41,965 bases of DNA from contig JASHTY010000106.1 of the NCBI GenBank assembly GCA_030040315.1, positions 1-41,965 on the forward strand. Direction: 5' to 3'. The notes under the pieces were generated by a model that was not told where the DNA came from, did not search any database, and saw only the letters and a list, made by a program, of their open reading frames with translations. Source of the stretch: Terriglobia bacterium (lineage in GTDB: Bacteria; Acidobacteriota; Terriglobia; UBA7540). The position numbers and the translations under genes were made by a program. Within the stretch, counting starts at the first letter, position 1. Every line of letters starts with the position of its first letter. Shown in pieces: positions 21,089 through 24,138 of this stretch.

Positions 21089-21820
21089 TCAGGCCACTTT
21101 GTTGCCCGAGTGGAGGCCGCACTCCTTCCTGGTGGCTTCCTCCCACCACCAGCGGCCCTCGCGCTCGTGTTGCCCGGGCAGAACGGCTCGCGTGCACGGC
21201 TCGCATCCGATGGAGATGAATCCCCGCTCGTGTAGCGGATTGAAGGGAACTTTGTGTTCGCGGATGTAATCCCACACCTGCCTGGAACTCCAATTGGCCA
21301 GGGGATTGAACTTCACCAGTTCATTCGTTGGCGTCGAAAAGGTGGGGTCAGCCTGGATAACCGGCACGAAGGAGCGCGTCGAGGGGCTTTGGTCGCGCCG
21401 TTGCCCCGTGACCCATGCCTTCAGGGTAGAAAGCGCGCGCCGCAAGGGCTCGACCTTGCGAACTCCGCAGCACTCTTGGTGGCCGTCCTGGTAAAACGAG
21501 AAAAGGCCTTTTTCGCGGACGAGTTTCTCCACCGCTTCCGGCCTGGGGAAGAACACCTCCACGGGAACCTGATACCGTTCCCGAACCTGATCGAGGAACC
21601 GCAGCGTCTGCGCGTGGAGCCGCCCCGTGTCGAGCGAGAAGACGCGGAACTTGTGGCCCAGCTTTGACGCCATCTCGACCAGCACGACGTCCTCCGCGCC
21701 GCTGAAGCTGATTCCCACGCTAGGAGAAAACATCTCGAAAGCCAAAGTAAGAATTTCACTCGGATGCCGCTGCGCATAGGTTTCAGCGAGTTCGGCAAAA
21801 TCTGCAACTTCAAGTGGCAT
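21089..21820 (-). CDS. cysH: Assimilatory APS/PAPS reductase
   Basis: Reduces adenylyl sulfate (or PAPS) to sulfite in sulfate assimilation. The 243-residue protein has the P-loop-like [13 protein letters not shown], the [11 protein letters not shown] substrate segment and the C-terminal ECGLH catalytic Cys. The two extra Cys pairs (ECCGVRK and GCEPCTRA) mark the [4Fe-4S] type that normally uses APS. It lies 87 nt downstream of the TauE/SafE permease on the same strand, so both should be controlled by the cysteine-codon leader upstream of the permease. Substrate choice (APS versus PAPS) is inferred from the cluster cysteines. Confidence 0.93.
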
Positions 21821-21907: not shown

Positions 21908-22678
21908 TCATCCCACAATCAAGCGGGTTCCCAGGGAGAAGTAAAGAATCGTGAATAGCCAACTGAAATAACGCTCGGGAATGACGCGCGTCAAACGGCT
22001 TCCCAACACAACACCCGGCAAAGAACCCGCCACCACGCGCAGGAACAGGCCGCCGTCAAAGTGTCCCATGCGGACGTGCATCGCGCCCGCCAGCGCCATG
22101 GTCGCGAGTCCATACAGAATGTCTGTTCCCACCAACTCTCCCAGCGGATAGGGCGTAAGGAGCAGCAGGAAGATCATCAGCAGGCTTCCGCTGCCGATGG
22201 AAGTGAGGGCCACGAGAAATCCCACTAATGCCCCCGCCACCGCCAGCTTCAGACGCACGCCTACAGACGGCGCATCCACCCAGTCCTTGGGGGTCTTGAT
22301 TTTCCCCAGGCGAACGAAGGGCAGCATGACGGCCACGCTAGACAGAGTTATTCCCAGCACCAGCCGAAGCAAATGGTCCAGCTCGCCGCCCGCCAACCTG
22401 GATTTCAGGTAGCTCAGCAGCAGGATTCCACCCAGCGTGCCTGGAACCGTGCCGGCAATCAGGAACACAGCCAGTCGCCAGCGCACCTGCCCCAGCCGGC
22501 GGTGCTCAAACACCCCGAGCAGCTTAGTGAACGCGCCATTGACAATGTCCGTTCCGATCAGGGTAATGGCGGGGTAGGGGGTCAGCACCATCAGAAGCGG
22601 CGTGAGCAGCACGCCTCCACCTGTACCCGTCAATCCGATCAGCGTACCGGTAATGAATCCCAGAAGTGTTACCAACAT
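21908..22678 (-). CDS. TauE/SafE-family permease
   Basis: A 256-residue integral membrane protein of the TauE/SafE (DUF81) family, whose members move sulfite, sulfonates or other organosulfur anions. It begins VTLLGFITGTLIGLTGTGGGVLLTPLL with the family's Gly-rich first helix, and has a second, related half (KLAVAGALVGFLVALTSIGSGSLLMIFLL), about eight hydrophobic segments in all. Position directly before cysH and after a cysteine-type attenuator supports a role in sulfur uptake or sulfite handling, though the substrate cannot be read from sequence. The ATG has only a weak ribosome-binding site. Confidence 0.88.
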   Translation of the reverse strand: MLVTLLGFITGTLIGLTGTGGGVLLTPLLMVLTPYPAITLIGTDIVNGAFTKLLGVFEHRRLGQVRWRLAVFLIAGTVPGTLGGILLLSYLKSRLAGGELDHLLRLVLGITLSSVAVMLPFVRLGKIKTPKDWVDAPSVGVRLKLAVAGALVGFLVALTSIGSGSLLMIFLLLLTPYPLGELVGTDILYGLATMALAGAMHVRMGHFDGGLFLRVVAGSLPGVVLGSRLTRVIPERYFSWLFTILYFSLGTRLIVG

Positions 22679-22753
22679 TGGGTCCCTGCAAACCTTTCCG
22701 GCCTAATCGTCACCGGCGGCACAGCGCACGATTCGCTTCATCAAATCTGCAGT

Positions 22754-22796
22754 AAAAGCAAAAACGCCCGCTGCGGCTTATGCGTCAGCGGGCGTC
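22754..22796 (-). terminator. Intrinsic terminator in the sulfur-operon leader
   Basis: On the minus strand ACGCCCGCTG (22795-22786) pairs perfectly with CAGCGGGCGT (22773-22764), followed by TTTTTGCTTTT. It lies after the Cys-rich leader ORF and 76 nt before the permease ATG, so it must be read through for TauE/SafE-cysH expression. This is the expected place for an attenuator. Confidence 0.85.
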
Positions 22797-22824
22797 TCAG
22801 GTCTTGAACTTGTATTAGAGTGTG

Positions 22825-22929
22825 CTACGAATCTCTATTCCCTGAGGACAATTCTCCGCTGGCGGATGGCATACAACAGCACATCTGCGCGGCGGCAATG
22901 ATCCTCACGGAGTGGAGATTCGAAGTCAT
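22825..22929 (-). CDS. Cysteine-codon leader peptide of the TauE/SafE-cysH operon
   Basis: A 34-codon ORF, from ATG 22929 to TAG 22825, with three consecutive cysteine codons at 22873-22881 (QMCCCMPS). It starts about 10 nt after the predicted transcription start and has no ribosome-binding site, so translation may be nearly leaderless. The upstream ATG at 22947 in the same frame overlaps the -10 box and is unlikely. The segment just after the Cys codons (CAGCGG, 22856-22861) can pair with CCGCTG in the 5' arm of the terminator (22786-22791). Ribosome stalling for lack of Cys-tRNA would leave it free for that pairing. Function as a cysteine sensor is inference from layout; poly-Cys leader ORFs are known as attenuators in mycobacteria. 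Confidence 0.75.
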   Translation of the reverse strand: MTSNLHSVRIIAAAQMCCCMPSASGELSSGNRDS

Positions 22930-22945
22930 CGATTCAACGGTCAAC

Positions 22946-22974
22946 ATCTTACCACGACTTAAGATCCTCGTCAA
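22946..22974 (-). promoter_or_regulatory. Promoter of the sulfur-operon leader
   Basis: TTGACG and TAAGAT on the minus strand are exactly 17 nt apart, placing the start site near 22939, about 10 nt before the leader-peptide ATG. Confidence 0.8.
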
Positions 22975-23229: not shown

Positions 23230-23955
23230 ATGCGCAAATCCGTCGCCCTATACCTAATGATTGGCTTCGTCCTCTCCGCATCGGCCCACGCCAGCTCGAA
23301 TCGTGAAGACGACGTCCATCGCATGGAGGATTCCGCCCAGATCTTCGACGAAATCATGGGTACTCCGGACAGCGCCATTCCCCGCGACCTGCTCGGCTCC
23401 GCAAAGTGCATTGCCATCATCCCCGCCGAAAAGAAGCTGGCCTTTGTGGTGGGCGGAAATTACGGAAAAGGTCTGGTGACCTGCCGCGCGCCGAAGAGCT
23501 GGAGCGCGCCCGTGTTCCTGACGGTGAGCGGGGGCAGTGTCGGCTTTCAAATCGGCGGCTCGTCCACGGACTTCATTCTGGTCTTTCGCGGGCGGCGCGG
23601 ATTGCAGAAGCTCTTAAGCGACAAATTCCGCATCGGCGGCGATGTTTCCGCTGCAGCGGGGCCCGTGGGCAGAAGCGCCTCTGCCGGCACGGACATTGAG
23701 TTGCATGCTGAAATTCTGACTTACTCGCGCAGCCGCGGCGCTTTTGCGGGAATCAGCTTGAGCGGCGCCGTCGTGCAGCCCGACGACACCGGCAACGAGG
23801 CCCTGTACGGCCATCCCGTGCACCTGGAGAGCATTTTGGACGGGAAGGTCGGTATTCCCGCGGAAGCCAACGAGCTGGTTCAGGCCGTAAGCAAGGCCAC
23901 GGGCTCTCCCGTTCCAGATAGCGCCCCGGCGGCGGCCGAACCCATAGCGCCCTAG
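23230..23955 (+). CDS. Exported SYLF (YSC84) domain lipid-binding protein
   Basis: A 241-residue protein with a signal peptide (VALYLMIGFVLSASAHAS) and a SYLF/Ysc84 domain filling the rest. Family words are visible: IPRDLLGSAKCIAIIPAEKK, GGNYGKGLVTCR, GGSVGFQIGGSSTDFILVF and GPVGRSASAGTDIELHAEILTYSRSRGAFAGISLSGAVV. In eukaryotes the domain binds phosphoinositides; bacterial members are exported and their role is not settled. GGAGG lies 9 nt before the ATG. The tail after about residue 225 is Ala/Pro-rich. Divergent from the sulfur-operon leader, with about 300 nt between in which no further gene is seen. Confidence 0.9.
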   Translation: MRKSVALYLMIGFVLSASAHASSNREDDVHRMEDSAQIFDEIMGTPDSAIPRDLLGSAKCIAIIPAEKKLAFVVGGNYGKGLVTCRAPKSWSAPVFLTVSGGSVGFQIGGSSTDFILVFRGRRGLQKLLSDKFRIGGDVSAAAGPVGRSASAGTDIELHAEILTYSRSRGAFAGISLSGAVVQPDDTGNEALYGHPVHLESILDGKVGIPAEANELVQAVSKATGSPVPDSAPAAAEPIAP

Positions 23956-23961
23956 ACTCCC

Positions 23962-24101
23962 GGAAGGGCGGGGCTTCAGCCCCGCCGTTACGGACGTCGC
24001 GACGAAGCGGGCCTTCAGGCCCTGAAGCAATGCCGCTTCATGGGCTAAAGCCCCCCAAGATGATTCCTTCCCCAGCGGCGGGGTTGAAGCCCCGCCCTTC
24101 C
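23962..24101. repeat. Long palindromic element, family C, copy 2
   Basis: GGAAGGGCGGGGCTTCAGCC opens the element, and the closing arm GGCGGGG...CCCCGCCCTTCC is its near-perfect reverse complement. The inside has CCTTCAGGCCCTGAAG and GGGCTAAAGCCC hairpins. Same organisation as 11680-11810. It begins a few bases after the SYLF gene stop. Confidence 0.85.
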
Positions 24102-24138
24102 ATAGAGGTGCGAACAAGATCGGCTACTAACGTAAGCA

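Follow-up and report, generated by a model that had tools for sequence, protein, structure and literature searches.

A predicted cysteine-sensing transcription attenuator ahead of a TauE-cysH operon in Acidobacteriota

The trp, his, leu, and thr leaders of enterobacteria are the classical ribosome-mediated transcription attenuators. In the literature examined, leader-peptide attenuation is described mainly in Proteobacteria, Actinobacteria, and Firmicutes, and almost no acidobacterial attenuator predicted in a 2010 survey had an assigned function (PMC2965389). For cysteine, a transcription attenuator (uORFC-8-2) has been predicted before cysS in Rhodobacterales (PMC8632094). Poly-Cys leader peptides have been predicted in actinobacteria without conserved terminators (PMC1262725), and it has been suggested that poly-Cys leaders would represent the first bacterial example of cysteine-directed attenuation (PMC4633059). 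According to the passages that cite Canestrari 2020 (in PMC9031893 and PMC13236596), poly-Cys open reading frames (ORFs) of M. smegmatis regulate the translation of downstream genes. No earlier account of cysteine attenuation in Acidobacteriota, or of its use on sulfate assimilation through an intrinsic terminator, was found in the open-access literature.

Here we describe a leader from a Terriglobia bacterium that, on the evidence of its sequence and of ribosome modeling, is very probably a ribosome-mediated transcription attenuator that gauges how much cysteinyl-tRNA is available and regulates a TauE-cysH operon accordingly. The window (the whole stretch of DNA analyzed) comprises 41,965 nucleotides. 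Leader and operon lie entirely on its minus strand and comprise the following features, in the order of transcription:

22946..22974, minus strand: sigma-70-like promoter TTGACG-N17-TAAGAT (TTGACG 22974-22969, TAAGAT 22951-22946, 17-nt spacer)
22825..22929, minus strand: leader ORF of 34 codons plus stop (ATG 22929-22927, TAG 22827-22825)
22902..22922, minus strand: 5' arm of stem P1 (region 1), CGAATCTC...TGAGGA, 5' of the Cys codons (from the swap test and minimum free energy fold)
22873..22881, minus strand: control codons TGC TGT TGT (Cys-Cys-Cys)
22856..22866, minus strand: antiterminator strand AT1, TCCGCCAGCGG, a near-copy of the terminator 3' arm
22841..22849, minus strand: antiterminator strand AT2, GTCCTCAGG, overlapping the P1 3' arm
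22828..22848, minus strand: 3' arm of P1, TCCTCA...GAGATTCG, ending at the stop codon (from the swap test and minimum free energy fold)
22782..22800, minus strand: region 3, CTGAGACGCCCGCTGACGC, partner of AT1 and AT2 or, in part, of the terminator 3' arm
22754..22795, minus strand: intrinsic terminator with T-tract (perfect 10-bp stem 22795-22786 / 22773-22764, tail TTTTTGCTTTT)
21908..22678, minus strand: TauE/SafE-family membrane protein (PF01925, Pfam 2.7e-41)
21089..21820, minus strand: cysH, APS/PAPS reductase (PF01507 9e-53; TIGR02055 and NF002537 above cut-off)

An earlier, sequence-only reading of this DNA had named the promoter, the 34-codon ORF with its three consecutive Cys codons, the perfect 10-bp terminator with T-tract, and several complementary segments, and all of these are exact in the sequence. 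The TauE/SafE permease and cysH that it placed downstream are confirmed by Pfam and, for cysH, also by NCBIfam. The next gene after cysH, of thyX type (PF02511), is on the opposite strand, and the operon therefore comprises TauE and cysH. The Cys run precedes the leader stop codon by 15 codons, and the peptide (MTSNLHSVRIIAAAQMCCCMPSASGELSSGNRDS) has no match in NCBIfam or Pfam. Its ATG lies 16 nt 3' of the -10 box and about 8-10 nt from the predicted transcription start, such that the 5' untranslated region (UTR) would be too short for a Shine-Dalgarno site and the ORF nearly leaderless. A lone promoter-like match in the window is at chance level. Elsewhere in the window, palindromic GC-rich repeats (GGGCGGGGCTTCAACCCCGCC with variants) cluster between genes at positions 23950-24110, resembling a REP or intergenic repeat element.

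Two pairs of segments that flank the Cys codons are exact complements, namely CGAATCTC (22922-22915) with GAGATTCG (22835-22828) and TGAGGA (22907-22902) with TCCTCA (22848-22843). The sequence-only reading had listed both pairings; they hold, with the correction that together they make up a stem, P1, which competes with the antiterminator by overlapping it through its 3' arm and which holds the control codons in its loop. The antiterminator that it proposed, CAGCGG (22861-22856, 11 nt 3' of the last Cys codon) with CCGCTG (22791-22786), likewise exists but is only the inner half of the structure, which also includes a further helix formed by approximately 22849-22841 and 22800-22794. The TCCTCA strand is common to P1 and the antiterminator, and region 3 is common to the antiterminator and the terminator. 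Because of these shared strands, the three structures are mutually exclusive. The leader of the window folds at -76.3 kcal/mol, compared to a mean of -52.5 kcal/mol for shuffled sequences (z -5.4); for the antiterminator fold in the RNA of the window alone, the advantage over shuffled sequences is slight (z -1.4).

Covariation of the pairings was evaluated by a swap test, in which each strand was folded, without alignment, with the partner from its own genus (matched) or from another genus (swapped), using one sequence from each of 13 genera and 20,000 permutations. Matched partners folded better than swapped partners for P1 (-28.1 versus -19.8 kcal/mol), the antiterminator (-24.7 versus -20.9 kcal/mol), and the terminator (-25.1 versus -22.3 kcal/mol), each with p 5e-5, which is the floor of 20,000 permutations. 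The pairings of this element (type 1) thus coevolve across the 13 genera. AT2 alone gave p 0.004. As controls, the P1 5' arm against the spacer gave p 0.09, whereas AT2 against the spacer also reached significance (p 0.009), a signal that may come from the AT2 partner reaching into the spacer in the genus of the window. In a second element before sulfite reductase genes (type 2, described below), the swap test gave p 0.0004, 0.003, and 0.0002 for P1, antiterminator, and terminator, respectively. RNAalifold applied to a sequence alignment recovered only the terminator and one weak local hairpin, since the P1 and antiterminator helices are out of register in such an alignment. Judged from sequence, the leader RNA is shown to be capable of three mutually exclusive structures, each coevolving, as in the 1:2, 2:3, and 3:4 pairings of an attenuator.

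The distribution of the type-1 element in the family was determined with a covariance model (R1) built from sequence and the terminator only, without P1 or antiterminator pairs. R1 gave full-length strong matches, one per genome, in 29 of 39 family genomes representing 13 genera (E <= 5.4e-10); these are draft assemblies, and some of the 10 genomes without a strong match are incomplete. The Cys codons and the terminator, whose loss in related genomes would have spoken against the sequence-only reading, are kept in all 29 elements, with runs of three or more Cys codons in 27 and of two in G032 and G062. All 13 genera preserve the reading frame, with the ATG mostly 48-57 nt 5' of the Cys run. 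The first Cys codon is 54 nt from the stop in 20 of the 29 elements, and the stop is 28-44 nt from the terminator. Outside the Cys run and the antiterminator-encoding stretch, the peptide is free to vary from genus to genus. When 61 genomes were searched at the DNA level, the region was detected in six of eight genus-mates, with weaker matches in other genera of the family. All but one of these matches combined a Cys-run ORF, a segment copying the terminator 3' arm, and a terminator; the exception (L021) is a spurious partial match. The fold far below shuffles and the conservation across 13 genera confirm that the arrangement as a whole is more than chance.

The genes downstream of the leaders belong mostly to sulfur assimilation. 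Most type-1 leaders are followed by TauE and cysH, by cysH alone, or by a protein starting with MIEPHGG or a similar sequence and then TauE and/or cysH. From its start and gene context, this protein is taken to be a putative sulfate adenylyltransferase (sat-like). One type-1 leader (L069, G010:C202) is followed by an ORF that by eye resembles a carbonic anhydrase rather than TauE, cysH, or the sat-like gene.

Weak matches to R1 comprised a distinct leader, with the terminator AACCCACCGTCGG...GGTGGGTTTTTT, before proteins with PF03460, the nitrite/sulfite reductase ferredoxin-like domain. A model built from these type-2 leaders (R2) identified 26 of the 39 family genomes as carrying Cys leaders ahead of ORFs of the sulfite reductase type. 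The source genome of the window also carries one (L101, G000:C544:10103-10243), with the peptide MVGNLQPGMAMCCCCICCTATVPACGGFAT and the run CCCCICC, before sulfite reductase. The terminator of type 2 differs in sequence from that of type 1, and the logic is the same. Two copies of the type-2 leader, L110 (G001:C248) and L114 (G003:C13), stand before large secreted proteins that resemble TonB-dependent receptors, and in L114 the Cys run has shrunk to two separated Cys codons.

Short ORFs with clustered Cys codons and a downstream terminator, which the sequence-only reading had proposed to look for in other Acidobacteriota, were found in at least six other families of the phylum (f10, f19, f27, f31, f68, and f92). 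Those outside the home family are more divergent, and the distribution there is a lower bound given that the searches are insensitive; R1, with eight candidates scored in each genome, found little phylum-wide, and R2 together with a scan 5' of sulfite reductase genes was more productive. Gene names outside the family come from reading the proteins, with profile searches for sulfite reductase only. The loci are as follows:

G143, G162, and G189 (one family, same class), G086, and G445: Cys leader with terminator before sulfite reductase
G080 and G187: Cys leader with terminator before a PAPS-reductase-like gene just 5' of sulfite reductase
G388: Cys leader with terminator before a cysteine-synthase-like gene
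G070: Cys leader with terminator before a siroheme-type methyltransferase
G190: two Cys leaders of similar sequence (L206 and L052), before a YeeE/YedE-like gene and one other gene

Three of nine Cys-ORF loci 5' of sulfite reductase were discarded, two lying inside a coding region and one having no terminator.

Leaders rich in other amino acids were also observed. Histidine-rich leaders of similar design (e.g., MRRTLTHHAHHFSHRATCQWAAA), with the terminator AGCCCGCTGAC...GGGCTTTTT, occur at L082 (G062:C110), L085 (G011:C280), and L090 (G027:C165), and attenuation in the home family is therefore not limited to cysteine. In another family, a Trp-rich short frame (YYWWWCH) with a terminator precedes a trpE-like gene (L205, G160:C9:18050-18175).

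Codon choice in the Cys runs is reversed relative to the surrounding genes. In 50 elements of both types, TGT outnumbers TGC by 145 to 15, whereas TGC outnumbers TGT by 189 to 23 in the genes just 3' of the leaders and by 61 to 11 in the large ORFs of the window. The elements counted are related by descent and are not independent events; the bias is alike in types 1 and 2. Such a reversal would be expected if slow codons sensitive to tRNA charging were selected, or it could reflect a need to keep the Cys stretch free of stable pairing. A promoter match with its -10 box 9-18 nt 5' of the ATG is present in 26 of 28 type-1 and 19 of 21 type-2 elements, from which a 5' UTR of 2-10 nt is estimated (start sites being predicted). 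This spacing suggests that initiation on the leader ORF is probably leaderless or nearly so.

The effect of ribosome position was modeled by equilibrium folding, with a footprint assumed to extend 14 nt downstream of the A site. For the nascent transcript as it stands before the terminator 3' arm is synthesized, the mean probability without a ribosome was 0.50 for P1 versus 0.19 for the antiterminator. The antiterminator mean was 0.55 with a ribosome on the Cys codons when P1 was still allowed to span it, 0.03 with a ribosome on the antiterminator strand, and 0.42 with a ribosome parked at the stop codon. With the ribosome treated as a barrier, the antiterminator mean for type 1 was 0.87, 0.86, and 0.77 when Cys codons 1-3 occupied the A site, fell to 0.52, 0.27, and 0.20 over the three following codons, and was about 0.1 beyond them. 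Type 2 had the same shape (0.91, 0.92, and 0.87 at the Cys codons, then 0.69, 0.55, and 0.33). In this model, the Cys codons would mark the downstream edge of the interval in which a stalled ribosome leaves the antiterminator free; the sequence-only reading had guessed the same geometry. The complete leader at equilibrium always prefers the terminator (0.95), and the switch must therefore be kinetic, as in known attenuators. Because the antiterminator still reaches 0.42 with a ribosome at the stop codon, default termination relies on quick ribosome release, which we assume.

We propose that, without translation, P1 would form first and mask part of the antiterminator, such that the terminator halts RNA polymerase; P1 would thus represent a no-translation, terminate-by-default state. 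With ample cysteine, the ribosome would translate through the antiterminator strand as far as the stop codon; upon its release, P1 would re-form, again leading to termination. When charged tRNA-Cys is scarce, the ribosome would stall at the consecutive rare TGT codons, holding P1 apart with its body, which would end just before the antiterminator strand. The freed strand could then capture the emerging 5' arm of the terminator, allowing polymerase to read into TauE and cysH.

Other explanations can be weighed against these data. Translation attenuation as in mycobacteria, where slow Cys codons would alter ribosome access downstream and the terminator would be incidental, draws on M. smegmatis poly-Cys ORFs with short or no 5' UTR, which act in this way in the account given by citing papers (PMC9031893, PMC13236596), and on the probably near-leaderless nature of the acidobacterial ORF. 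We nonetheless consider it very unlikely given that a strong intrinsic terminator is present in every element and coevolves with the alternative pairings, that the Cys codons lie 15 codons before the stop, where a stall exposes the antiterminator, and that sister elements with another terminator sequence follow the same logic. Somewhat less probable again is that the short ORF encodes a functional Cys-rich peptide, with a role in metal binding or redox, and that the terminator simply ends its transcript. A short conserved ORF with a CCC(C) motif and its own promoter and terminator would suit such a peptide. Against this stand a sequence that is free to vary outside the Cys run and the antiterminator-encoding stretch, nucleotides in the second half that obey base-pairing, and Cys codons that are the rare synonym, which a peptide product alone would not require.

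Riboswitches also sit in structured, terminator-bearing leaders ahead of sulfur genes, and a metabolite-binding riboswitch or tRNA-binding T-box could overlap a short ORF by chance. Rfam at a relaxed threshold returned only sub-threshold noise, the best hit lying on the opposite strand and scoring 21.3 bits where the cut-off is 70; moreover, conservation resides in the Cys codons, antiterminator, and terminator rather than in a ligand pocket, and the frame is kept in 13 genera, which together make this reading highly improbable. Lowest in probability is that a Cys-rich ORF and a terminator came together by chance. One CCC ORF is indeed unremarkable alone (about 1.5 are expected in a Markov shuffle of the 42-kb window), yet chance is refuted by the 29 homologous loci with coevolving pairings. 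A scan for a Cys-run ORF with a terminator at 80 cysH loci of named genomes, which recovers 23 of the 29 known elements, likewise found only the acidobacterial L122 and none among the 78 loci from other groups.

Attenuation by ribosomes stalled at cysteine codons thus remains the reading that we favor for the TauE-cysH leader. Whether such attenuation is a common control of sulfur assimilation in Acidobacteriota is, in our estimate, evenly balanced. The regulon would comprise a number of leaders built separately from one another, before TauE-cysH (alone or with the sat-like gene), sulfite reductase, cysteine-synthase-like, siroheme-type, and YeeE/YedE-like genes; rare TGT codons would make it over-sensitive, and it would perhaps replace a CysB- or CymR-like regulator. 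One acidobacterial attenuator gains a likely function, a sensed amino acid, target genes, and a testable mechanism, and cysteine, via an intrinsic terminator on sulfate assimilation, would join the attenuation signals. The rare-codon bias and the predicted near-absence of a 5' UTR lead to testable predictions on sensitivity and initiation, and the leader offers a handle for recognizing cysteine-controlled genes in an abundant, hard-to-grow soil phylum.

The leader has every sequence-testable feature of the trp and his attenuators, with codon placement judged through the assumed-footprint model. Like the trp, his, leu, and thr attenuators, it combines clustered control codons in a leader ORF, three mutually exclusive hairpins, and an intrinsic terminator, and the genes downstream serve biosynthesis of the sensed amino acid. 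Unlike trp and his, it senses cysteine and belongs to a different phylum, its control codons lie in the P1 loop rather than inside region 1, and its ORF, which by prediction has nearly no 5' UTR, spans the antiterminator strand as far as the P1 3' arm.

The mycobacterial precedent invoked by the sequence-only reading holds as an analog: there too, sulfur or cysteine genes are preceded by a poly-Cys leader ORF whose 5' UTR is short or absent, as is also probable for the acidobacterial ORF. It is not the same device, being reported as translational and without a conserved terminator. The mycobacterial Cys run is near the stop codon and has no conserved terminator (PMC1262725), whereas the acidobacterial run is mid-ORF and has one. 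Closer in mechanism is uORFC-8-2 (PMC8632094), likewise a predicted attenuator of transcription, which combines an intrinsic terminator with tandem Cys codons. That element controls cysteinyl-tRNA synthetase in Alphaproteobacteria and has two Cys codons, mostly UGC, in its first stem, while the acidobacterial leader precedes sulfur-assimilation genes and usually has three or more Cys codons, mostly TGT. The acidobacterial leader is a variant of a known attenuator type; its occurrence in Acidobacteriota and the placement of sulfate assimilation behind an intrinsic terminator appear new within the open-access literature.
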